From Virgibacillus sp. 7505 (GTDB lineage: Bacteria; Bacillota; Bacilli; Bacillales; Amphibacillaceae): 64,000 nucleotides of DNA. Of the stretch, positions 10,891-28,793 are shown piece after piece. Where the stretch lies: positions 1 to 64,000 of the forward strand of contig NZ_NPBF01000026.1 in assembly GCF_002272135.1 (NCBI RefSeq). Direction: 5' to 3'. The translations under genes and the position numbers were made by a program. The notes below the pieces were generated by a model that was not told the origin of the DNA, did not search any database, and worked only from the letters and a program-made list of their open reading frames with translations. Each line of letters starts with the position of its first letter. Positions within the stretch are counted from its first letter, which is position 1.

Positions 10891-10913
10891 ACAGCCCATA
10901 TTAAATGGGCTGT
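10891..10913 (-). terminator. Terminator of sfnG-like gene
   Basis: Stem ACAGCCCAT/ATGGGCTGT spans the stop codon; the minus-strand sequence continues with TTTAACTT. Confidence 0.7.
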
Positions 10914-11983
10914 GTCACATCTTCCAGTGCTGCTTCTTTCTCACGTACAAGTGGAATGACTTCACGGCCGAAGCGCTCTAGATCTTCTTCGTAATGGAAG
11001 TGACCAGTTAGAACAAGATCGACACCAATTTGCTTCAGACGAATGATTTGCTCAGCCACTTGTTCTGCCGTACCTAACAGACCGGTTTTGAAACCGTCAT
11101 TATATTGAACAAGATCCTCATAGGAAGAGTCTGCCCACATGCCTTGCTTGCTTTGGGTTGCTTGACCAGCGTCCTTGACGGACGCACGAAAGCCTTCGAC
11201 TGCTTCCGTATCGGCATGGCTGACAATATCACGCAGCAGTGATACTGCTTCTTCTTCTGTGTCACGGACGATGGCGAAGCCGTTTACAGCGAACTTTACA
11301 TCACGGCCTTGTTTGGCTGCACGGGCTTTCACGTCTTGGATTTGCTGCTGTAAGCCTTCGAGTGTATTGCCGTTCATGAAATAATAATTGGAAACACGAG
11401 CAGCCATGTCACGAGCTACATCGGAATTGCCGCCTTGGAATATAGGAATCTGCTTTTCTGGTTTTGGTTTTAAAGGGGCGTCTGATAGCCTGTAAAAGTC
11501 TCCTCGATAGGTAGCTTGTTCTTCCTCCCACAACGCCCGGAGCACACGGATGAACTCTTCGGAACGACGGTAGCGTTCATCATGATCGAGCCAATGCTCA
11601 CCGTAGCTGATGAATTCTTGTTTGAACCAGCCGCTGACGACATTGACAGCGGCGCGACCTCCGCTAATATGGTCCAGTGTAGCGAGCATTTTGGCGTAGA
11701 CGCCTGGATGCCAAAGACCTGGGTGGACTGCCGATATTAAGTTTAATTTTTCGGTGACGCTTGCTAGGGCAGAGGCGAGGGTTATTGCTTCAAGCTGTTT
11801 ATCAGCGCCGTAGCTTGCGATAAAACGTGTTTGCAGAAGGGCATATTCAAAGCCGTTCTGCTCAGCGATTTGCGCGTAGCGTTTATTCGCTGCAAAACTC
11901 CAGTCCGTTTTCTGCGGCAGCTTGGATATGACTAGCCCGCCGCTCACATTCGGTACCCAATAAGCAAATTTCACTTTTGTCAT
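10901..11983 (-). CDS. sfnG: Dimethylsulfone monooxygenase SfnG-like (FMN-dependent)
   Basis: 360 aa luciferase-like monooxygenase. The beginning KVKFAYWVPNVSGGLVIS, the segment VNVVSGWFKQEFISYGEHWLDHDERYRRSEEF (key residues V, G, W, D, R; about 135-165) and IFQGGNSDVARDMAA (about 200) fit the SfnG group, which oxidises dimethylsulfone to methanesulfinate with reduced FMN. A SAM riboswitch lies in the leader, which fits a role in sulfur supply when methionine/SAM is short. No flavin reductase gene is adjacent, so reduced flavin must come from elsewhere. Other LLM-family alkanesulfonate monooxygenases are the alternative. Confidence 0.85.
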   Translation of the reverse strand: MTKVKFAYWVPNVSGGLVISKLPQKTDWSFAANKRYAQIAEQNGFEYALLQTRFIASYGADKQLEAITLASALASVTEKLNLISAVHPGLWHPGVYAKMLATLDHISGGRAAVNVVSGWFKQEFISYGEHWLDHDERYRRSEEFIRVLRALWEEEQATYRGDFYRLSDAPLKPKPEKQIPIFQGGNSDVARDMAARVSNYYFMNGNTLEGLQQQIQDVKARAAKQGRDVKFAVNGFAIVRDTEEEAVSLLRDIVSHADTEAVEGFRASVKDAGQATQSKQGMWADSSYEDLVQYNDGFKTGLLGTAEQVAEQIIRLKQIGVDLVLTGHFHYEEDLERFGREVIPLVREKEAALEDVTQPI

Positions 11984-12020: not shown

Positions 12021-12186
12021 GAAAACAGCCCTTCTCCATAAAAGAGAAGGGCTGCGGGTATGTAACTACCATCCGTTCACGCTTCTCATCTTCAGGATGT
12101 AATATCCTTCTGAAATTGGCACCGTGCTAGTAACAGTCGGTTGCCGAGGCTTCACTGGGTCAGTCCCTCCGCCTCTCTTGATAAGA
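12021..12186 (-). promoter_or_regulatory. SAM-I riboswitch (S-box) upstream of sfnG
   Basis: Read on the minus strand. The aptamer (12186 down to about 12081) opens with CTTATCAAGAG, then GGCGGAGGGACTGACCC, GTGAAGCC, CGGCAACC and GGTGCCAATT, and closes with GATGAGAAG. These are the conserved S-box blocks. A terminator follows: stem CAGCCCTTCTC/GAGAAGGGCTG (12026-12054) then TTTTC. SAM binding should therefore stop transcription before sfnG. Confidence 0.95.
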
Positions 12187-12203
12187 AAACTATTTTTTTA
12201 GTG

Positions 12204-18044: not shown

Positions 18045-18068
18045 AGCAACCTGCCAACGCAGGTTGCT
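18045..18068. terminator. Bidirectional terminator
   Basis: 10-bp stem AGCAACCTGC/GCAGGTTGCT. On the minus strand a TTTTTATG run follows, ending the ABC-importer operon; on the plus strand it ends the phosphatase cluster. Confidence 0.85.
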
Positions 18069-18075
18069 ATTCAAT

Positions 18076-19077
18076 TTATAACGTAATTCTCGCTTTCTCC
18101 TCCGCTCCAACAGGATAGAAGCAAGCCACTTCCTGTCCAGGTACGCCGCGTTCTTCCGGAACGGGGACGTTGGTCTTACAGAACTCAGTTGCTTTCGGAC
18201 AGCGAGTATGGAAAACGCAGCCCGATGGCGGATTAGCAGGGGAGGGCAGTTCTCCTTTTAGGACGATGCGTTCTCGCGCGCGTTCTTTGTCTGGATCTGG
18301 CAGCGGCACAGCGGATAGCAGTGCATTTGTATAAGGATGCTGCGCATGTGTCTGGAATGAATCCCGATTGGATCTTTCCATCACTTTGCCGAGATACATG
18401 ACGGCGACACGGTCAGCAATGTGATTAATGACGGAAAGGTCGTGTGCAATGAATACATACGTCAGATCCAACTTTTTCTGAAGATCCTGGAATAAGTTGA
18501 TCACTTGGGCCTGGACGGATACATCAAGCGCACTGACTGGTTCGTCACAGACGATCAGCTGCGGCTCCAGAGCAATAGCGCGGGCAATACCAATCCGCTG
18601 GCGCTGACCGCCTGAGAATTCATGAGGCAGCCGGTTATAATGGTCATCTGGATTCAAGCCGACGAGTTCCATCAGCTCTTTCACGCGCGATTCCAGGTTC
18701 TTAGTCTTTTTGTACGCTTTAAGCGGAGCGGCGATGCTCTCGCTCACTTTCATGCGCGGATTCAAGCTTGTATACGGATCCTGGAACACCATTTGCATAT
18801 TGCGCCGCAGCTCGTATAGCTCTTTGGCAGATGCGTCTGTATATGTGTTTCCTTCAAAAAGAATGTCTCCAGAAGTAGGCTTTTGCAGTCCGACGATGCT
18901 TCGGGCGAGTGTGCTTTTCCCGCAGCCGGATTCGCCTACAATTCCTAGTATTTCCCCTTTTTTTACTGTCAAATCTATGCCATTCAAGGCTTTCACATGA
19001 CCTGTTGTCCTTTGTAAAACACCGTTCTTAATTGGGAAATGGACGTGAAGATCCTTTATTTCCAATAATGCAGTCAT
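18076..19077 (-). CDS. Peptide-type ABC importer ATPase (OppF/DppF-like)
   Basis: 333 aa. Walker A GESGCGKS (about 48), signature FSGGQRQR (about 158) and Walker B LIVCDEPVSALD (about 180). The C-terminal oligopeptide-transporter extension has the cysteine-rich CVFHTRCPKATEFC (about 288). It energises the importer with the OppD-like partner. Its ATG overlaps the previous gene's stop by four bases. Last gene of the S-box operon. Confidence 0.92.
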   Translation of the reverse strand: MTALLEIKDLHVHFPIKNGVLQRTTGHVKALNGIDLTVKKGEILGIVGESGCGKSTLARSIVGLQKPTSGDILFEGNTYTDASAKELYELRRNMQMVFQDPYTSLNPRMKVSESIAAPLKAYKKTKNLESRVKELMELVGLNPDDHYNRLPHEFSGGQRQRIGIARAIALEPQLIVCDEPVSALDVSVQAQVINLFQDLQKKLDLTYVFIAHDLSVINHIADRVAVMYLGKVMERSNRDSFQTHAQHPYTNALLSAVPLPDPDKERARERIVLKGELPSPANPPSGCVFHTRCPKATEFCKTNVPVPEERGVPGQEVACFYPVGAEEKARITL

Positions 19078-20090
19078 GACAGCAGCACTCCTTTACCTTC
19101 GGCTACAGCTCGTTTTTCTTTATCGAATTCAGGCTTGCTGAGCATACACGCAGCCAAATGATTTGTTCCGCGTTCCGAGAGCGGCGGGTCAGTCTGAAGG
19201 CAAGCATCTCTCGCAAATGGACAGCGAGGATGGAAGTTGCAGCCTTTTGGCGGGTGAATCAGATTCGGCGGATGCCCCTCGATATGGAGCAGCCTCTCGG
19301 GAGCCCCTGCATCGAGTCTTGGGATTGAGCGCAGCAGCGACCATGTATATGGCATTGCCGTTTTATAGAAGATGTCAGCTGTACTGCCGGATTCAATAAT
19401 TTTACCGGCATACATGACAAGAATCCGGTCTGCTAGATTTGCCACAACGCCTAAATCATGGGTGATCATTATTATTGCGGTACCATATTTCTGCTGAATG
19501 CTTTTCAATAACTCGATGATTTGAGCTTGGATTGTTACATCCAGTGCTGTTGTCGGCTCATCAGCTATAAGCAGTTTCGGTCTGGCAGCCAGTGCAATGG
19601 CGATCAGAACGCGCTGGCGCATACCGCCGGAGAATTGGTGCGGATAATTTTGCATACGTCGTTCGGGATCCGGGATGCCGACATCTTTCAGTAACTCGAT
19701 TGCTTTTTGCCGAGCCTCTTTTTTAGGGAGTTTCTGATGCGTCTGGATGGCCTCCATAAGCTGTCTGCCAATCTTGAAAACAGGATTGAGGCTCGACATT
19801 GGATCCTGAAAGATCATGGCGATTTCTTTTCCACGCAAATTGCGCAGGCGTTTTTTATCCATTGTCAGGATGTTCTCGCCTTCGAACAGAATTTCACCCT
19901 TTGGATAGGTTGCGGGCGGTTCTGGATTAAGCTTTGTCAGCGAGTGGGCGAGTACACTTTTCCCGCTGCCGGATTCCCCGACAATGCCGACTGTCTGCCC
20001 GGCTTCCAGCCGGAAGGATACACCATCAACTGCTTTGACGAGGCCAGCTGCGGTATCCAGGTGTACATGCAGATCATTTACTTGTAGCAT
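19074..20090 (-). CDS. Peptide-type ABC importer ATPase (OppD/DppD-like)
   Basis: 338 aa from the ATG at 20090, which has GAGGAGG nine bases upstream; longer readings add an out-of-family N-terminus. Walker A GESGSGKS (about 41), signature FSGGMRQR (about 152), Walker [13 protein letters not shown] (about 175) and the C-terminal [14 protein letters not shown]. Partner of the OppF-like ATPase in the cytoplasmic ATP-hydrolysing pair. Confidence 0.92.
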
Positions 20091-20103
20091 AATGAAACCT
20101 CCT

Positions 20104-20952
20104 CTAGGCAGCTGGTGCTGTCTGCTTTGGTTTTCGTTTCCGTTTTTTCTTGACGCTATGCGGATCAAAAGCATCCCGTAGCCCGTCCCCGAGTATGTTC
20201 AACGACAAAACAGTAATGACGATCGCTATACCAGGGAAGATCGAGAACCATGGAGCTATCGTGATATAAATTTGTGATTCCTGCAGCATATTTCCCCATG
20301 TCGGTGTGGACGGATTCACTCCGACACCAAGAAAGCTCAGGGCTGCTTCAGCCAGGATTGCTTTAGCAAAGATGAATGTGCTTTGCACAATGATTGGAGA
20401 GAGTACATTCGGCAGGATATACCGGAAAATGATCACCATATTATTCGTTCCTGTCGTTCTTGCAGCTTCAATGTATTGTGCGTTTTTTATTTGCAGCACG
20501 GCAGAGCGTACGACTCGAGCCATGACTGGGAAGAAGGCAATTGTCAGGGCGATGACGATATTCGTAATGCTTCCGCCTAAAGCTGCAACTAGTGCTAATG
20601 CAAGCAAAAGGGCAGGGAAGGCGAGAAAGCCATCCACAATCCGCATCAGAATGAAATCTGTCTTACGGAAATAGCCGGATACAAGTCCGATCAGTGTGCC
20701 AATCACAGTTGCTACGACGGCTACTATGACGCCGACAGCCAGTGACACGCGTGCAGCTACAATAACCCGTGCAAAGATGTCCCGGCCAAAATCATCTGTA
20801 CCAAACCAATGGGTGCCAGATGGTGAAAGCAGACGCTGGTTGGCATCTATCGCCGCAGGGGAGACCGGCAGCCACAGATTTGCCGTTATGGTTGCCAATG
20901 CAACGAGTAAGAAAATAGTAAGTGCAATTATATTTCGTTTCTTGGACATCAT
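20104..20952 (-). CDS. Peptide-type ABC importer permease (OppC/DppC-like)
   Basis: 282 aa with about six membrane helices. The N-terminal cytoplasmic OppC_N segment is followed by HWFGTDDFGRDIFARVI (about 49-65), a hallmark of DppC/OppC. The EAA-type loop EAARTTGTNNMVIIFRYILP (about 160) contacts the ATPases. AAGGAGGT lies upstream. Two adjacent ATGs are possible starts. Confidence 0.92.
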   Translation of the reverse strand: MMSKKRNIIALTIFLLVALATITANLWLPVSPAAIDANQRLLSPSGTHWFGTDDFGRDIFARVIVAARVSLAVGVIVAVVATVIGTLIGLVSGYFRKTDFILMRIVDGFLAFPALLLALALVAALGGSITNIVIALTIAFFPVMARVVRSAVLQIKNAQYIEAARTTGTNNMVIIFRYILPNVLSPIIVQSTFIFAKAILAEAALSFLGVGVNPSTPTWGNMLQESQIYITIAPWFSIFPGIAIVITVLSLNILGDGLRDAFDPHSVKKKRKRKPKQTAPAA

Positions 20953-20973: not shown

Positions 20974-21918
20974 TCAATCATAGCGGATTCTCGGATCAAG
21001 GAATGCATACAAAAGATCGACGATCAAGTTGACCAGGACATAAATCGCGGCGATGAATAGCACGACACCTTGAATCACAGGGTAATCCCGTCGGTGAATC
21101 GAATCGATAAGCAGCTGTCCGATCCCAGGGATGGTGAAAAGTGTTTCAATAATAACCGTTCCGCCAAGCAGACCAGCCACTGTGGCACCTAGAACAGTTG
21201 TTGTCGGGATAAGCGCATTGGAGAATACGTGCTTCATCAATACATCACGTTCACGGACGCCTTTCGCCCGTGCTGTTTTTGTATAATCCTGGTTCACGGA
21301 ATCAAGCATGCTGTCGCGCAGCATTCGGGCAATGATGCCGATTTCCACTAATGCCAGCACTAAAGCAGGCAGCAGCAAATGATAAATCCATGGACCAAAG
21401 CCTTCCGCAAGCGGCATATAGCCTGCAACCGGGAAAATCGGGAATGTTACGCCAAAAACGAGTACAAGCAAAATCGCAAGCCAGAATTCCGGAATTGATA
21501 CGCCTAGAAGGGAAGCGTTAGTAAATAACGGATCCAGAATCGTCTTACGCAAAGACACAATCAGGATTGCAAGCGGAATGGAGATGACCAAAATAAAGAG
21601 CAGGGACAATACCATCAAGCTGATTGTCGGTCCAAAGTTGCCAAAAATCAGTTCCGTCACTGGCTGGGCAGAATAGACACTCGTCCCGAGGTCGCCGGTG
21701 ATGACTTGTTTGAGCCAGTCGAAGAATTGGATATACAAAGGCTCATTCAAACCAAGCTGCTCTTCCAGCTGCGCAATAGCTTCAGGAGAAGCGTCTTCAC
21801 CAAGGATGATGAAGGCTGGATTTCCTGGCGTTAGGTGAACGAGCAGGAATACAATGATGCTGACGACTAGCATAACCGGTACAACAGATAACAGTCTTCG
21901 GATCGTGTAACGAAGCAC
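20974..21918 (-). CDS. Peptide-type ABC importer permease (OppB/DppB-like)
   Basis: 314 aa from GTG 21918, eight bases after GAAGGAG; an upstream GTG at 21927 overlaps the Shine-Dalgarno and is less likely. Six membrane helices, N-terminal MLRYTIRRLLSVVPVMLVV and the EAA loop YTKTARAKGVRERDVLMKHV (about 215). Pairs with the OppC-like permease to form the channel. Confidence 0.9.
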   Translation of the reverse strand: MLRYTIRRLLSVVPVMLVVSIIVFLLVHLTPGNPAFIILGEDASPEAIAQLEEQLGLNEPLYIQFFDWLKQVITGDLGTSVYSAQPVTELIFGNFGPTISLMVLSLLFILVISIPLAILIVSLRKTILDPLFTNASLLGVSIPEFWLAILLVLVFGVTFPIFPVAGYMPLAEGFGPWIYHLLLPALVLALVEIGIIARMLRDSMLDSVNQDYTKTARAKGVRERDVLMKHVFSNALIPTTTVLGATVAGLLGGTVIIETLFTIPGIGQLLIDSIHRRDYPVIQGVVLFIAAIYVLVNLIVDLLYAFLDPRIRYD

Positions 21919-21947
21919 GTGCGTCACTCCTTCATTTAGAAATGGAA

Positions 21948-21987: not shown

Positions 21988-23574
21988 TTACTGTGATTTC
22001 CATGTATTCCAGAAGCGAGGACCATACCAATCATCATAATCCTGCAGCTTGGAAGTTCGTGCATCCAATGTGGAAAGGTTGCTTACTTTCTCAAATGGAA
22101 GCTCGTCATAAATCGTCTTATTCAGCTCAGCGAGTATTTCTTGCTGAGCAGCCTCATCTTCCGCTTCACCCCACTGGGCGATTAGCTCCTGCCAGCGTTC
22201 GCTGTTGTACCAGCCGCTGCTGTTGGAATCCTGGCTCACTACACCAGCTTGGTTTGGCGAGAAGAAAGGAGACCAGCCTACTACGACCATATCCCAGTTA
22301 GCGCCATCGCTCCATTTTTCCAGGTAAGTTGCCCATTCATAGGACTCCAGCTCGACGTTGAATCCAACTGCCTCAAGCTGCTGTTCTGCGATTTCGGCAA
22401 TTTTCTTATACTCTGCATGGTCATTGGAGAAGATGATTTTCACCGGCTGCCCATCATAGGAGCTGTCTTCAAGCAGTTTTTTAGCTTCATCCTGATCAAA
22501 CGCGTCGAAATTATCAATGTTTTGATCTGAGTAAAGAGCTGTCTGATCTGGTGTGAACAAGGCGCCGTCCAGATTATAAAATTCGCTGTTGCCATATGTT
22601 GCTTTCGCGATTGCTTCTTTATCCAGTGCAGCATGCAGTGCTTCTCTGACCTTGATGTCATCGAAGGGTGCTTCTGATTTATCCGGTGTAATGACGGAAT
22701 AGCCATTGCTGGAAATAGCTGGTTCAACATTCGGTGTCGTATCAACTACATCATATAAATCAAGCGGAATGGACTGTACGTAATCATAAAGATCTGTCTT
22801 CAGACCATTGAGCATTACTTGCGGGTCTTTTACGATTTTAAAGTGAATCGTATCCAGGTATGCGGTCTTCTTACCAGTCAAACCTCCCCAGTCTTCCTCC
22901 TCACGAGATTGATAGTCTTCGAATTTGGATAATACAATCTCATTCCCGCGCTTCCACGAATCAAATTTGAATGGACCTGTACCGATCAGCTGCTCGTTTG
23001 TCAGCGGCTGTTCACCTGCAGCTTCCGCAATGTCAGCTGGAAGGATGACAGCTGATGCTTTTGGTGCAGACATATCAGTAAGCAAAGCGGTATACGGATC
23101 GTTAAGCGTAATGACCAATGTCAGGTCATCCGTTGCTTCTACGGAATCAACATGCGTTGCAGTGATCTTACCGACAGAGGAGACCTTCAGCCAGCGGTCG
23201 ATAGATGCTTTTGCGTCTTCCGCTGTTACGTCTTGCCCGTTATGGAACTTAAGTCCGTCACGAAGCGTGATCGTATAGGTTTTCTTATCATCACTAACGG
23301 TATAATCATCAGCAAGCAAAGGGCGTACTTGATAATCATGATCTAGTGCAAATAAACCTTCGTAAATATGCCAGCCAATTTTTCTGGTGGCACTTTCTCC
23401 GGAATACATCCAGTCAAGCGTATCAGGATCAGCAGTCATGGCAACGTTCAAGTCACCGCCTTCAACGGGCTCTCCGCCGCTTGCGCCGGAACTGCTGCTG
23501 GAACTGCTGGAGCACCCGAACAGGGCGATGGTGGCCATCAGGCCGAATAATATAAGTGCAAGCTTCTTATTCAA
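21988..23574 (-). CDS. Substrate-binding lipoprotein (SBP family 5)
   Basis: 528 aa, TTG start seven bases after AAGGAGGA. Lipoprotein signal with lipobox ALFGC (Cys about 21), then a Ser-rich linker. The body matches peptide/nickel-type binding proteins (family 5): DPDTLDWMYSGE, YTITLRDGLKFHNGQDVTAEDA (key GLKFHNG) and LIGTGPFKFDSW. It would capture the substrate at the outer membrane face. The gene sits between the M20 deacylase (12 bp) and the permeases. Ligand unknown: peptides, acylated amino acids or other small molecules are all possible for this family. Confidence 0.9.
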   Translation of the reverse strand: MNKKLALILFGLMATIALFGCSSSSSSSSGASGGEPVEGGDLNVAMTADPDTLDWMYSGESATRKIGWHIYEGLFALDHDYQVRPLLADDYTVSDDKKTYTITLRDGLKFHNGQDVTAEDAKASIDRWLKVSSVGKITATHVDSVEATDDLTLVITLNDPYTALLTDMSAPKASAVILPADIAEAAGEQPLTNEQLIGTGPFKFDSWKRGNEIVLSKFEDYQSREEEDWGGLTGKKTAYLDTIHFKIVKDPQVMLNGLKTDLYDYVQSIPLDLYDVVDTTPNVEPAISSNGYSVITPDKSEAPFDDIKVREALHAALDKEAIAKATYGNSEFYNLDGALFTPDQTALYSDQNIDNFDAFDQDEAKKLLEDSSYDGQPVKIIFSNDHAEYKKIAEIAEQQLEAVGFNVELESYEWATYLEKWSDGANWDMVVVGWSPFFSPNQAGVVSQDSNSSGWYNSERWQELIAQWGEAEDEAAQQEILAELNKTIYDELPFEKVSNLSTLDARTSKLQDYDDWYGPRFWNTWKSQ

Positions 23575-23586
23575 TATACTTCCTCC

Positions 23587-24783
23587 TTAGCTTCCCAATA
23601 ACGAGAATACGATTTTCGTGAATGCTTTTTCCGTGATGAGCAAAGCTCGCTCATCGATGTCGAATTTAGGGTGGTGATGCGGATAATGGGTGCCTGTATC
23701 GTCATTGCGGGAGCCGACTTTAAAGAAGCTTCCCGGTTTCTCTTGCAGATAGTAAGCGAAATCCTCTGCTCCCATCCCGGTTTCAAGTGGAATAACCTGT
23801 TCTTCACCGAATTGTTCGCTAAAAAGACGCTGCAGAAGTGCAGTTTCTTCTGGATAGTTATAAAGAGCAGGGTAGCCATGTAAATAATCGATGGAATAGG
23901 TTGCGCCGAAACCAGTTGCGATACCAGCTACAATGGACTCTATTTGTTTCCTTACCTGCTGGCGTATGTCTGCGTTGAATGTCCGTACTGTTCCTTCCAA
24001 TCTGGCGGTATCCGGAATAACATTGAATGCTTGGCCAGATTGAAACACACCAAGTGTCACAACTGCTGATTCCAGCGGATTGACTCTGCGGCTGACAATT
24101 TTTTGCAGGGCGCTGACGATATCACTTCCGATGACAATTGGATCGACAGCCTCATGAGGAGCTGCACCATGACCGCCTTTTCCTTGGATAGTAATCGCGA
24201 ATTTATCTACTGCTGCCATCTTGAAGCCTTCGCCCACACCGATCTTTCCGATAGGGGCAGCTGAATTAAGGTGGGCACCATAAACATAATCCACACCATC
24301 AAGTGCACCATCTTCAATCATCGCTTTTGCGCCGCCTGGAGGAACTTCCTCAGCCGGCTGGAACAGGAAGACTACTTTACCTTTCAGGCTATCCTTATGC
24401 TTGATCAGTGCTTTGGCAGTTCCAAGCAATGCCGCTGTATGGCCGTCATGACCGCAAGCATGCATCACGCCAGGAGTCTTGGATCGATAGGCTGTTTCTT
24501 TTTCATCTTCTATCGGCAGGGCATCGAAATCTGCTCGCAGCGCAATCGTCGGACCTGCTGCCTTACCTGATAGGGAAGCGACGATACCAAATCCGCCAAT
24601 ATTTGTCTGGATATCTTCATAGCCGAAGCTGCGCAGCTTGTCGGCGATAAAACGGGCAGTCTCTGTCTCCTGGAAACTCAATTCTGGATGCTGATGCAAA
24701 TAACGTCTCCACTCCACGACTTCTGCGAAATTGTCTTCCAGCTCCGTATGTACTTCCGCAAGTGTCTGCTTGATCTGTTCCAT
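23587..24783 (-). CDS. M20D-type amidohydrolase (N-acyl-amino-acid deacylase/aminopeptidase)
   Basis: 398 aa from ATG 24783 with AGGAGG upstream. Metal-binding motifs of family M20D: ACGHDGHTAALLG (about 103-115), PAEEVPPGGAKAM (about 138), YGAHLNS (about 163) and the His-rich HYPHHHPKFDIDE (about 370). Relatives remove acyl groups from amino acids (acetyl-cysteine, hippurate, indole-acetyl-amino acids, N-acetyl-diaminopimelate). First gene of the SAM-riboswitch operon, which argues that the product is methionine, cysteine or a precursor. Confidence 0.88.
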   Translation of the reverse strand: MEQIKQTLAEVHTELEDNFAEVVEWRRYLHQHPELSFQETETARFIADKLRSFGYEDIQTNIGGFGIVASLSGKAAGPTIALRADFDALPIEDEKETAYRSKTPGVMHACGHDGHTAALLGTAKALIKHKDSLKGKVVFLFQPAEEVPPGGAKAMIEDGALDGVDYVYGAHLNSAAPIGKIGVGEGFKMAAVDKFAITIQGKGGHGAAPHEAVDPIVIGSDIVSALQKIVSRRVNPLESAVVTLGVFQSGQAFNVIPDTARLEGTVRTFNADIRQQVRKQIESIVAGIATGFGATYSIDYLHGYPALYNYPEETALLQRLFSEQFGEEQVIPLETGMGAEDFAYYLQEKPGSFFKVGSRNDDTGTHYPHHHPKFDIDERALLITEKAFTKIVFSLLGS

Positions 24784-24841
24784 TTTCAAACCTCCTGTAA
24801 CAATCTTGATATTTCCAATGAAAATAATCGGGATTAAGATC

Positions 24842-24995
24842 AAAAAAAGACCCTCTTCTAGACAGAAGAGGGTCTTTTAAAGATTTTCCGCTCTTCTTAT
24901 CTTCAGTGTTAAACACCTGGAATTAGCACAGTACTGCGGCTTGCAGCCTGTTGCTTTGGTTTCGTTGGGCCATTCCCTCCACCAATCTCGATAAG
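24842..24995 (-). promoter_or_regulatory. SAM-I riboswitch (S-box) of the M20-ABC importer operon
   Basis: Read on the minus strand. The aptamer runs from 24995 to about 24892: CTTATCGAGA, GGTGGAGGGAATGGCCC, GAAACC, GGCAAC-like core as AGCAACAGGCTG, GTGCTAATTCCAG and the closing GATAAGAAG. The terminator stem AAAGACCCTCTTCT/AGAAGAGGGTCTTT (24846-24877) is followed by TTTTT. High SAM should block the operon. Confidence 0.93.
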
Positions 24996-25015
24996 AAATA
25001 TCAGTTGTAAGGAAA

Positions 25016-25044
25016 AGGATAGACTGAAAAGTTCTAGGTGTCAA
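25016..25044 (-). promoter_or_regulatory. SigA promoter of the M20-ABC operon
   Basis: TTGACA (25039-25044), 17-bp spacer, TATCCT (25016-25021) on the minus strand, just upstream of the S-box. Confidence 0.75.
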
Positions 25045-25166: not shown

Positions 25167-25196
25167 AGCTTTAATATAAAAATTATATAGAACTTT

Positions 25197-25356
25197 TCTT
25201 ATCAAGAGAGACGGAGGGACTTGGCCCAGTGATGTCTCAGCAACCAGTCTGAGAAGACACGGTGCTAAATCCAAAAGGTATCCGCCTTAAAGATAAGAAG
25301 CTGATTCGGTCATGACTGAACCTTCTTCCTTTTTGGGGAGAAGGTTCTTTTTTTGT
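25197..25356 (+). promoter_or_regulatory. SAM-I riboswitch (S-box) of the metI-metC operon
   Basis: Aptamer 25198-25300: CTTATCAAGAGAG, CGGAGGGACTTGGCCC, GTGATGTCTCAGCAACC, GGTGCTAAATCC and AGATAAGAAG. Terminator stem from 25318 (GAACCTTCT/AGAAGGTTC) then TTTTTTT. Same control as B. subtilis metIC (yjcIJ). Confidence 0.96.
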
Positions 25357-25379: not shown

Positions 25380-26480
25380 ATGGGAAATAGTTTAGAAACA
25401 GCATTTGTACAGCTTGGAAATCGCAGTGATGGAGTAACTGGGGCAGTCAACCCGCCAGTTTATCTGTCCACGGCTTATGCACACACAGGAATCGGCGAAT
25501 CTACAGGATATGATTATTCACGGACGAAGAACCCCACTCGATCAGTTCTGGAAGAAGGGTTTGCAAAGCTGGAAAAAGGCGATCAGGCATTTGCGTGCAG
25601 CTCAGGCATGGCGGCAATCCAGCTTGTATTGTCACTTTTCCGTTCGGGCGATTCCCTGCTGGTGCCGGAGGATATTTATGGAGGCACCTATCGGCTGTTT
25701 GATTTCTATTCAGACGCCTATGACGTCTCGCCAATTTATACACCATTTCATTCCGTCGAAGAGACTGCGATATTGATAACGGACGATACAAAAGCAATTT
25801 TCCTTGAAACACCGACAAACCCGCTCATGCAGGAAATTGATATTGCTGCCTATGCGCAGCTGGCAAAAGCAAACAACCTGCTGTTAATTGTGGATAATAC
25901 GTTTCTGACACCTTATTACCAGCAGCCGCTTACAGAAGGAGCAGATATTGTCATCCATAGTGCAACGAAATATATTGGCGGCCATAACGACGTTTTAGCC
26001 GGAATTGTTGTGAGTAAAGGCATCGAGCTATCAGACCGGTTAGCTGCATTGCATAACGGTACGGGAGCTGTCTTGTCTCCGCTCGATTCCTGGCTTCTCA
26101 TCCGAGGCTTGAAGACGCTGCCGCTTCGAATGCGGCAGCATCAAGCAAATGCACAGCGCATCGCAAGTTATCTTGCAGAGGAGCCGAAAGTGAAAGACGT
26201 CCTGTATACAGGAAAAGGCGGCATGCTTTCCTTCCGGGTCCAGGAAAGCAGCTGGGTCGATCCATTCCTTCGAAGCCTGGAAATCATCACCTTTGCCGAA
26301 AGTCTTGGCGGAGTGGAAAGTTTTATCACATATCCTACAACCCAGACACATGCAGACATCCCTGTTGAGGAACGGGAGGCCAGAGGAATTTGCGATTGTC
26401 TGCTTCGTTTCTCGGTCGGGATTGAAGAAGCGGAGGATTTGATTGGTGATTTACAGCAAGCATTCGCCAAACTGGATTAG
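25380..26480 (+). CDS. metI: Cystathionine gamma-synthase / O-acetylhomoserine thiolyase
   Basis: 366 aa, ATG 25380 after GAGGAGGGGG. PLP-dependent Cys/Met metabolism enzyme; the cofactor Lys is in SATKYIGGH (about 193), and YDYSRTKNPTR (about 42) is a substrate/PLP-site motif. It joins an activated homoserine to cysteine (or sulfide), making cystathionine (or homocysteine). First gene behind the S-box; metC follows 14 bp later, as in B. subtilis metIC. Confidence 0.92.
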   Translation: MGNSLETAFVQLGNRSDGVTGAVNPPVYLSTAYAHTGIGESTGYDYSRTKNPTRSVLEEGFAKLEKGDQAFACSSGMAAIQLVLSLFRSGDSLLVPEDIYGGTYRLFDFYSDAYDVSPIYTPFHSVEETAILITDDTKAIFLETPTNPLMQEIDIAAYAQLAKANNLLLIVDNTFLTPYYQQPLTEGADIVIHSATKYIGGHNDVLAGIVVSKGIELSDRLAALHNGTGAVLSPLDSWLLIRGLKTLPLRMRQHQANAQRIASYLAEEPKVKDVLYTGKGGMLSFRVQESSWVDPFLRSLEIITFAESLGGVESFITYPTTQTHADIPVEEREARGICDCLLRFSVGIEEAEDLIGDLQQAFAKLD

Positions 26481-26494
26481 GAGGCCATCATCAT

Positions 26495-27799
26495 ATGGGA
26501 GAACAACATTCAGAAACGACATGTATACGGGGATTACACAAAGAGCAGCAAACAGGTGCGGTGAACGTCCCGATTTATCTATCGTCTACCTTCCACCAGG
26601 AAAGCTTCGATGATTTCGGTCCATTCGATTATAGTCGTTCTGGTAACCCGACACGAGAAGCGCTGGAGCAGAAGGTAGCTACACTAGAGGGAGGTACAGA
26701 TGCTTTCGCATTTTCATCTGGCATGGCAGCAATATCCTCCGCATTCATGCTGCTGTCAGCAGGGGATCATGTGATAGTGACCGAGGATGTGTACGGCGGA
26801 ACGTATCGTTTTGTGACAGAGATCCTTCCGAAATTCCAGATCAGTCATTCCTTTGTTGACCTAACCGATTTGGATGCTGTAGAAGCAGCTGTACGACCAA
26901 ACACGAAGGTCATTTACTTGGAGACACCGTCCAATCCGTGTTTGAAGGTGACTGACATTCGGGCCGTGGTCCAGATAGCAAAGCAACATGATTGTTTAAC
27001 TTTCTTGGACAACACATTTTTGACGCCGCTGTATCAGCAGCCATTGGCATTCGGTGTGGATGTAGTCATCCATAGTGCAACGAAGTTTCTTTCAGGGCAT
27101 AGTGATATTATCGCAGGACTGCTGATCACTAAGGATACAGAACTCGCAGGAAGACTGGCTTTCATCCAGAACACATTTGGTGCTATTCTCGGAGCTCAAG
27201 ATAGCTATTTGCTGCTCCAAGGAATAAAGACGTTAGGTACAAGATTGCGTCAGTCATCGGAATCGGCGGAGAGGATAGCTTTGTTCCTGCAGGAGCATTC
27301 GCTTGTGGAAGATGTCTTCTACCCTGGCTTGCCCACTCATAAAGGACATGACATACATACCGGGCAGGCCAGTGGAAATGGAGCAGTAGTATCATTTGCT
27401 CTGCCAAGCAGGGAACACGCAAAGATTTTTGTTGAACAGCTTCGCATTCCTATTTTCGCTGTCAGTCTCGGCGCTGTGGAATCCATCCTTTCCTATCCAG
27501 CTTCGATGTCACATGCTTCCATGCCTGAAGCTGAGCGAAAGAAACGAGGTATAACAGATGGGCTCTTACGTTTATCTGTTGGCCTGGAGCATGTGGAGGA
27601 CCTCATGGAAGATCTGCTGCAGGCCTTGAAGGCTGCTGAAGGCGTAATAGAAAAAAGTAGAAAACTAAAAAATGGGAGAGATGAACATGACAACGAAAAC
27701 AAAAACGGCACCATTCAGAGCAGATCACGTAGGGAGCCTGCTTCGTCCAGATGTACTGCACAAGGCCAGACAGCAATTCAAAGAAGGCCAAATCAGTAA
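26495..27799 (+). CDS. metC: Cystathionine beta-lyase with unusual C-terminal read-on
   Basis: 434 aa; family members are about 390. PLP lysine in HSATKFLSGHSDI (about 192). It cleaves cystathionine to homocysteine, pyruvate and ammonia. AGGAGG precedes the ATG. The homologous part ends near LLQALKAAEGV (about 388). The remaining 45 or so residues are low-complexity and basic, and they run 113 bp into the next gene in another frame. In the neighbouring frame TAATAG occurs at 27645-27650, so a one-base shift near 27644 may have removed the original stop. The enzyme domain itself looks intact. Confidence 0.88.
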   Translation: MGEQHSETTCIRGLHKEQQTGAVNVPIYLSSTFHQESFDDFGPFDYSRSGNPTREALEQKVATLEGGTDAFAFSSGMAAISSAFMLLSAGDHVIVTEDVYGGTYRFVTEILPKFQISHSFVDLTDLDAVEAAVRPNTKVIYLETPSNPCLKVTDIRAVVQIAKQHDCLTFLDNTFLTPLYQQPLAFGVDVVIHSATKFLSGHSDIIAGLLITKDTELAGRLAFIQNTFGAILGAQDSYLLLQGIKTLGTRLRQSSESAERIALFLQEHSLVEDVFYPGLPTHKGHDIHTGQASGNGAVVSFALPSREHAKIFVEQLRIPIFAVSLGAVESILSYPASMSHASMPEAERKKRGITDGLLRLSVGLEHVEDLMEDLLQALKAAEGVIEKSRKLKNGRDEHDNENKNGTIQSRSRREPASSRCTAQGQTAIQRRPNQ

Positions 27800-28793
27800 A
27801 CAAGATCTTCGCGAAATCGAAACGTCAGAGATCAAAAGAATCGTAGACAAGCAAATTGAAGTCGGCTTGGAGCTTGTGACAGACGGAGAATTCCGGAGAA
27901 GATTCTGGCATACAGACTTTTTGGAACATCTTAACGGCATCACAGGTTATGTTCCGGACACTGGTTACCTGTTCAAAGGAGAAGAAACAGAACGATATAA
28001 CATTAAAAATACGGGCAAAGTTTCGTTCAATCCTGATCATCCTTTCCTCGAGGACTATAAGGTATTCCAAGACATCGTTGCGGGAAGGGCGGTAGCTAAA
28101 CAGACAATTCCTAGTCCGAATCAGCTCTTCCATACAGATATTCGTGATCACTCCATTTATCCGGATATTGAGGATTTTGCAGCTGATGTTATTCAGACTT
28201 ACAAAGATGCCATCCAAGCATTTTATGATGCAGGGGTACGCTATTTGCAGCTAGATGATGTTTACATTGCTACACTATCTTCTCCTGATGCGAAATTCGA
28301 TGGAGAGCATTCCAGAGAGTTCTTGATTGATTTGGCACGCCGGGTGATCAATGGTGTATTGGAAGGTAAGCCGGAGGATCTTACTGTGACGACGCATCTC
28401 TGTCGAGGAAACTATCGCTCTACATATATGTTCGGGGGCAGCTATGACTTGATTGCAAAGGATCTGTTAGCAAAAGAGAAAGTCGATGGTTTCTTCCTAG
28501 AGTATGATGATGAGCGATCAGGTACATTCGAACCGCTTCAGTATATCCCGCAGGATGGTCCAAGAGTCGTTCTAGGCGTTGTAACTTCAAAATTTGGGGA
28601 ACTGGAAGATAAGGATGCTGTAATCAGCCGGATTGAAGAAGCAACAAAGTATATCCCTCTTGATCAGATTTGCTTAAGCCCGCAATGTGGCTTTGCCTCC
28701 ACACATCATGGCAATAAATTGACTGAAGAAGAACAATGGGAGAAACTGCGCTTCATCGTCGATGTTGCGAAGACTGTTTGGCCCCAAGCGTGA
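27687..28793 (+). CDS. YxjG/YxjH-like cobalamin-independent methionine synthase family protein
   Basis: 368 aa; ATG 27687 is chosen since GGGAGAG ends six bases upstream. It corresponds to the C-terminal catalytic half of MetE: FRADHVGSLLRP at the start, LVTDGEFRRRFWHTDF (about 62), zinc ligands in THLCRGN (about 238) and SPQCGF (about 332). Relatives in B. subtilis are S-box-regulated and are thought to methylate homocysteine or use another methyl donor. Third gene of the metI operon, giving a logical metI-metC-methyltransferase route. Confidence 0.88.
   Translation: MTTKTKTAPFRADHVGSLLRPDVLHKARQQFKEGQISKQDLREIETSEIKRIVDKQIEVGLELVTDGEFRRRFWHTDFLEHLNGITGYVPDTGYLFKGEETERYNIKNTGKVSFNPDHPFLEDYKVFQDIVAGRAVAKQTIPSPNQLFHTDIRDHSIYPDIEDFAADVIQTYKDAIQAFYDAGVRYLQLDDVYIATLSSPDAKFDGEHSREFLIDLARRVINGVLEGKPEDLTVTTHLCRGNYRSTYMFGGSYDLIAKDLLAKEKVDGFFLEYDDERSGTFEPLQYIPQDGPRVVLGVVTSKFGELEDKDAVISRIEEATKYIPLDQICLSPQCGFASTHHGNKLTEEEQWEKLRFIVDVAKTVWPQA

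Follow-up and report, generated by a model that had tools for sequence, protein, structure and literature searches.

What does a soil bacterium take up, and what does it cleave, when a complete Opp-type importer and an amidohydrolase are placed together behind a sensor of S-adenosylmethionine (SAM)? This question is raised by an operon of Virgibacillus sp. 7505, whose genome measures 3.66 Mb and whose nearest named relatives, judged by this locus, belong to Terribacillus. We analyzed a 64,000-nt stretch of this genome (contig NZ_NPBF01000026.1), which we call the window; coordinates are positions in this stretch, and handles in G and L denote relatives' genomes and fetched loci, respectively. 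The original prediction, made from the letters alone, placed a SAM riboswitch (S-box) with a terminator ahead of an M20D amidohydrolase, a family-5 binding lipoprotein, two permeases and two ATPases, and this arrangement was confirmed by an Rfam match (RF00162, 81.5 bits) and by gene calls. All six genes lie on the minus strand, downstream of the middle one of the three SAM riboswitches that an Rfam scan found in the window (12083-12187, minus; 24894-24997, minus; 25196-25299, plus). The span initially assigned to the system, 21988-24995, takes in the S-box and the first two genes (M20D and lipoprotein), but the operon continues to about 18045. As argued below, the operon probably serves the supply of methionine or cysteine. 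We propose, tentatively and with slightly less than even confidence, that it is a SAM-off scavenging operon whose likeliest cargo is an N-blocked (e.g., N-acyl) derivative of one of these amino acids.

The aptamer (24894-24997, minus strand) was recovered over the full RF00162 model (positions 1-108; E = 1.2e-17 in the whole-window scan; cut-off 44.4 bits), and the folding of the leader (24784-24997) was better than that of all 200 shuffled sequences (z = -3.1). Its J1/2 (AGA) and P3 (GCAAC/GUGC) elements, which we take to hold the SAM-contacting letters, are those of the RF00162 consensus, and the positions G11, A12, GCA.C and GTGC are invariant across 19 aligned S-boxes. Because these letters are the common ones, the aptamer is unlikely to belong to the spermidine-sensing SAM-I variant, which is altered in J1/2 and in the P3 internal loop (PMC10853860; this and the other articles are cited from the parts of their text available to us), and that assignment was rejected. 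Downstream of the aptamer lies an intrinsic terminator (24845-24878, minus; 15 pairs, a 4-base loop and a T run; minimum free energy of the hairpin -22.7 kcal/mol), as well as a putative antiterminator (approximately 24862-24898, minus) in which the 3' strand of P1 and the linker (~24888-24898) would pair with the 5' arm of the terminator (~24862-24873; duplex -11.6 kcal/mol). A terminator whose 5' arm could base-pair with the 3' strand of P1 and the linker was present in all eight leaders that we folded (the window, T. aidingensis, T. halophilus, G188, G147, two Planococcus and G014), with antiterminator duplexes of -7.3 to -11.6 kcal/mol, given as raw energies without a shuffle control. Judged from sequence and folding, the leader is thus the usual SAM-off attenuator, and a response to SAM is predicted: when SAM is low, the aptamer would stay open, the 3' strand of P1 would base-pair with the 5' arm of the terminator, and transcription would run on into the six genes. 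A promoter-like site (TTGACA-17-TATCCT; 25016-25044, minus; 10/12 matches in a consensus scan) precedes the aptamer, but the region holds 11 such sites as compared with 10.7 in shuffled sequences, so that this candidate is called on its position only.

A comparison of gene neighborhoods, which the original prediction had proposed as a check, bore out the link between the S-box and the importer. In two overlapping samples of genomes, one of 397 from the order and one of 398 from the class, the lipoprotein was present at 52% identity or more in nine of the 397 order genomes, four of these being Terribacillus. At E values of 1e-150 or better, its gene was found in 10/10 Terribacillus genomes, in 8/46 genomes of the genus with the Planococcus maitriensis locus, and in 1/12 and 2/17 genomes of the G188 and G294 families, respectively; the gene is core in Terribacillus and patchy in the other groups. 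We assembled 24 orthologous loci with binding proteins at least 43% identical to that of the window: 10 from Terribacillus, eight from the Planococcus genus, and those of G188, G147, G014, G294, G355 and G617 (43-45%). A same-strand S-box occurred upstream in 21 of these 24, as compared with none of 37 distant-relative loci (31 loci, L156-L186, at 29-37% identity and six further loci at 26-29%; the upstream stretch examined was shorter than 9 kb in some, e.g., ~2.4 kb in L185). The sole S-box among the distant loci, in L172, lies more than 5 kb off on the opposite strand. The search left out 20 loci of one 37-locus list of relatives (L068, L070, L072, L074-L076, L078 and L080-L092). S-boxes were confirmed with Rfam in the window, L150, L151, L154 and L063, and the remainder rest on a model (R1) derived from this genome's 19 S-boxes; 150 first-look candidates were scored per genome, and per-genome counts are lower bounds. 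The three orthologous loci without an upstream S-box belong to G294, G355 and G617, genomes with S-boxes at other loci (at least 13, 16 and 10, respectively).

The link is kept in five genus-level groups, namely Terribacillus and four others whose binding proteins are 52-70% identical to that of the window. Because the SAM aptamer is intact, the attenuator conserved, the S-box link kept in these five groups and a methionine operon positioned back to back with this one, the assignment to sulfur supply made in the original prediction is well supported. As a separate observation, a contig labelled Bacillus haynesii NRRL B-41327 (L059) carries the operon with a lipoprotein 92% identical to that of the window; there, it adjoins sulfonate-type importer genes (by eye) rather than the met operon; a mislabelled record or a relocated operon could account for this.

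The importer itself is of the Opp/Dpp type, as indicated by a PF00496 binding protein, two PF00528 permeases and two ATPases with PF00005 and PF08352 domains, all encoded on the minus strand. The lipoprotein (21988-23574; 528 amino acids, TTG start, lipobox LFGC; PF00496, 264.7 bits) is followed by an OppB-like permease (20974-21927; PF00528 and PF19300; under the cut-offs of all 17 matched NCBIfam families), an OppC-like permease (20104-20952; PF00528; under the cut-offs of the 25 NCBIfam families listed, out of 28 matched), an OppD-like ATPase (19074-20090, with its start placed at MLQVNDLHV within the open frame 19074-20174) and an OppF-like ATPase (18076-19077). The gaps from the M20D gene to the OppD-like gene are 12, 60, 21 and 13 bases, and the OppD-like and OppF-like genes overlap by 4 bases. 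A terminator-like site with a 10-pair stem, listed for both strands, marks the operon end (18045-18068).

An AlphaFold2 model of the binding protein (mean pLDDT 88.4) had as its top match in the PDB the structure 8vdx (Z 41.3, root-mean-square deviation (rmsd) 2.4, 484 aligned residues), with further matches to 5u4o (Z 38.3), CtaP (5isu; Z 37.4, rmsd 3.0, 467 aligned) and the glutathione-binding GbpA (3m8u; Z 37.2). With many family-5 proteins of different ligands lying within a few Z units, the modelled fold leaves the ligand unsettled. Of the NCBIfam equivalog families, GsiB was the best match (139.7 bits against a cut-off of 594), with NikA (130.8 against 393), CntA (105.4 against 800), OppA (88.5 against 947) and DppA (72.7 against 1005) likewise below their cut-offs. 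In a sequence comparison with solved chains, CtaP (Lmo0135; 5isu) was the fifth-best match at 111.3 bits; the structural match to it has 24% identity. The DppA residues R383 and D436 (precursor numbering, consistent with the PDB title of 8z1z), which presumably grip the two ends of a dipeptide, correspond to N and P in the lipoprotein of the operon, and to N/S and P/T in 11 aligned relatives, within a gapped region of the alignment. With both residues replaced there, dipeptide binding of the DppA type was rejected. Loss of the charged residues would permit an N-blocked or non-peptide ligand, a weak hint that singles out neither. The motif following GW reads GWSPFFSPNQ in Terribacillus, Planococcus, G188 and G147, and GWSTRFSP[SN]EL in G294, G355 and G014, with G617 unlike both; the pocket may differ among these groups. 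Plasmid-borne relatives also occur, at about 35% identity for the best among the matches listed, and 138 of the 193 records are from Rhizobium.

The first gene of the operon encodes the M20D amidohydrolase (23587-24783, minus; 398 amino acids; TIGR01891, 413.6 bits against a cut-off of 153.75; PF01546 and PF07687). Enzymes of this family cleave the alpha-amide bonds of N-acyl amino acids. Its nearest solved chains are 4ewt and YxeP/ScmP (1ysj), and the motifs HACGHD, PAEE, GxH and HHP, the residues of which we assume to bind the metal, are intact in the alignment to YxeP. Identity with the CpsA carboxypeptidase (NF040868) was rejected, as its score of 413.4 bits falls under the cut-off of 500. 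In a FastTree topology of 58 M20 sequences, drawn without a branch-support check, with YhaA and YtnL left out and YxeP entered as its aligned stretch only, the window enzyme clusters with its operon orthologues and with the M20D proteins of L191 and L169, which lie beside similar importer genes, and apart from YxeP/ScmP; on this tree, orthology to ScmP/YxeP was rejected. A further M20D copy of this genome (L042; G000:C21:234013-235128) contains an in-frame TAG, which could mark a pseudogene or stem from an assembly error. A binding protein distantly related to that of the window is encoded in L165 (5736-17211) among M20, GNAT-like, enolase-family, MlrC-like and M20D genes (mostly by eye), a set that resembles an N-acyl amino acid pathway.

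In 14 of the 24 orthologous loci (10 Terribacillus, G188, G147, G294 and G355), the gene immediately preceding that of the lipoprotein encodes an M20D enzyme. Since the enzyme adjoins the importer in only these loci, the importer is the S-box-bound core, and the M20D enzyme was rejected as its obligatory partner. In G014, where no M20D gene stands beside the S-box importer, two other S-boxes precede M20D genes (TIGR01891, 353.7 and 360.8 bits): one stands alone (L225, 2898-4461) and the other closes an operon of Cys/Met-type genes by eye (L229, 2724-9486), and in the tree both enzymes are on the side of YxeP/ScmP. The same genome has a second M20D-Opp operon (L230; importer genes by eye), for which an S-box was not found.

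Together, these features suggest how the operon may work. The lipoprotein would capture an external compound, the Opp-type ATP-binding cassette (ABC) importer would take it in, as its family implies, and a cytoplasmic M20D enzyme would then cut an amide bond, freeing methionine or cysteine. The weakest step is the nature of the cargo, for which we favor methionine or cysteine in a form whose amino group is blocked, for instance by acylation. More tentative still is the wider proposal that several Bacillales genera possess a SAM-gated route in which an N-acylated derivative of methionine or cysteine, either found free in the surroundings or originating from plants or other microbes, enters through an Opp-type importer and is deacylated inside by a matching M20D. 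The original prediction had envisaged dedicated import coupled to hydrolysis; the lipobox and the lack of a visible signal peptide in the M20D sequence are consistent with this division of labor, but a strict pairing does not hold across the orthologous loci. In support of the reading proposed here, another S-box operon of the same genome carries an HmrA-type M20 enzyme (L022; 418.8 bits to 3ram). Several observations weigh against it. No M20D gene adjoins the importer in 10 of the 24 loci (all eight of the Planococcus genus, G014 and G617). In the single Planococcus genome examined for S-box-led M20D genes elsewhere (G757, L226), none was found, the best copy and its nearest S-box lying on opposite strands. 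In G294 and G355, the M20D and importer genes are kept together but lack an S-box, even though both genomes have S-boxes elsewhere; upstream of the G355 M20D gene, a search for a T-box or another known leader RNA returned nothing at E 1. The two DppA residues are also missing from GsiB, which binds the peptide glutathione, and in 19 distant relatives Asp occurs at the D436 column in none and Arg at the R383 column in 14 (the alignment is gapped there). Finally, the window enzyme lies outside the ScmP clade, and the tested N-acetylcysteine activity of ScmP is therefore not transferable to it.

How else might the operon supply sulfur? Listeria CtaP, a family-5 protein that serves high-affinity uptake of cysteine and has a predicted SAM riboswitch ahead of its gene (PMC10269559), offers one model, in which the importer would carry cysteine, cystine or short sulfur peptides with free ends, and M20D would act on the imports as a dipeptidase or carboxypeptidase. 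The structural match to 5isu and the 10 loci in which the importer occurs without M20D agree with such a role, but identity to CtaP is only 24%, other family-5 proteins score equally or higher, and the DppA residues that bind dipeptide ends are missing; on balance, we consider it unlikely. A cargo of glutathione-like, other gamma-linked or S-conjugated thiols, with M20D working on a later breakdown product, would fit the ranking of GsiB as best NCBIfam match, the structural closeness of GbpA bound to glutathione disulfide, and the absence of the DppA residues from GsiB as well. The GsiB score is far under its cut-off, though, none of the six genes encodes a gamma-glutamyl hydrolase, and the alpha-amide specificity of M20D enzymes fits poorly, making this the least probable of the readings considered. 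It is also improbable, if somewhat less so, that a general amide- or peptide-scavenging module acquired its S-box by chance in one lineage and carries no sulfur-specific cargo: M20D and Opp-type genes do occur without an S-box in G294, G355 and the second operon of G014, but a chance capture would hardly be kept in Terribacillus and four further genus-level groups.

Should the N-acyl cargo prove right, the methionine regulon would gain a nutrient source, and M20D genes at present known by family name alone would become easier to assign. The analysis also defines a binding-protein family whose mode of regulation suggests a role in supplying sulfur amino acids, and offers a short ligand list and a clean assay for it.

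The route had been put forward as possibly undescribed. We found no description of an S-box before an M20D-Opp operon, though a 2004 comparative study of methionine regulons in Gram-positive bacteria may mention one, and each half of the combination has a precedent behind a SAM riboswitch: ctaP (PMC10269559) and metNIQ-COG1473 (PMC12452182). Like the window operon, the CtaP/CtpP1/CtpP2 system of Listeria monocytogenes combines a family-5 protein and two Opp-type permeases with a predicted SAM riboswitch and a role in sulfur amino acid supply; the window operon differs in its low identity to CtaP, in its two additional ATPase genes, and in its M20D gene, none being mentioned in the part of PMC10269559 available to us. 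In the second case, metNIQ operons carrying amhX (COG1473, M20D-family) stand under tandem SAM riboswitches or T-boxes, so that an M20D-family enzyme and an ABC importer are again combined under a SAM riboswitch, but the importer is MetNIQ rather than Opp type, and was labelled by the authors as metal-ion transport (PMC12452182). A parallel to metNIQ-amhX within this genome is the MetNPQ-type S-box operon (by eye) with the HmrA-type M20 enzyme. The Bacillus subtilis M20 deacylases ScmP, YhaA and YtnL free cysteine from an N-acyl form; ScmP cleaves N-acetylcysteine, with ~1% activity on N-acetylmethionine, and no activity was detected on N-acetyl-S-(2-succino)cysteine (PMC12757645). In our tree, from which YhaA and YtnL were left out, the M20D enzyme of the window is placed outside the ScmP clade, and its operon contains no acetyltransferase or monooxygenase gene. 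In Lactobacillus delbrueckii, a methionine-specific leader RNA also precedes oligopeptide transport genes, but it is a Met-T-box rather than an S-box, and no hydrolase is stated in the part of the article available (PMC3771891). By annotation, Escherichia coli iaaA-gsiABCD likewise places a hydrolase gene, there an isoaspartyl dipeptidase, beside a family-5 importer, although the hydrolase belongs to another family and the ligand is glutathione. To our knowledge, the E. coli genes are not under S-box control.

The genome, with at least 19 S-boxes, appears from sequence to hold a wide S-box-controlled sulfur regulon. Translations of 17 stretches behind other S-boxes were examined. Family searches identified a luciferase-like monooxygenase (L025), a major facilitator superfamily (MFS) transporter (L020), acyl-CoA-dehydrogenase-like proteins (L020 and L027), a Na+/H+ antiporter-family protein (L030), an iron-containing alcohol dehydrogenase (L031), a Cys/Met enzyme (L032), a cyclase (L034), the M20 enzyme of L022 and an M42 peptidase (L029). 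By eye, further luciferase-like monooxygenases, MetX, MetK and homoserine dehydrogenase were recognized, along with four MetNPQ-type cassettes (L021, L022, L024 and L028); given these cassettes, the uptake of free methionine looks already covered. The M42-family peptidase gene behind the S-box of L029 (132-1151) is, as far as we know, an unusual S-box target. The third S-box of the window (12083-12187, minus) leads to a luciferase-like monooxygenase (10901-11983, minus; PF00296, 247.6 bits), possibly for organosulfur oxidation.

The adjoining methionine operon is divergent from the operon described here and has its own SAM riboswitch (25196-25299, plus; RF00162, 87.7 bits) with a terminator at 25318-25347. 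It comprises, on the plus strand, a MetI/CGS-like gene (25380-26480; NF006095, 621.2 bits against a cut-off of 585), a MetC-like gene (26495-27799; NF005976, 623.7 bits, just below the cut-off of 627) and a short MetE-like gene (27672-28793; NF005085, 451.5 bits against a cut-off of 313). The MetC-like frame (434 amino acids) overlaps the MetE-like gene by 128 bases, and its alignment to T. aidingensis (L060) spans only 373 amino acids. In Planococcus (L063, 4074-7591), just upstream of the S-box of the binding-protein operon, another S-box precedes an amino-acid-type ABC importer (by eye) and a homocysteine S-methyltransferase (NF007020, 439.3 bits), a set that may serve the use of S-methylmethionine.

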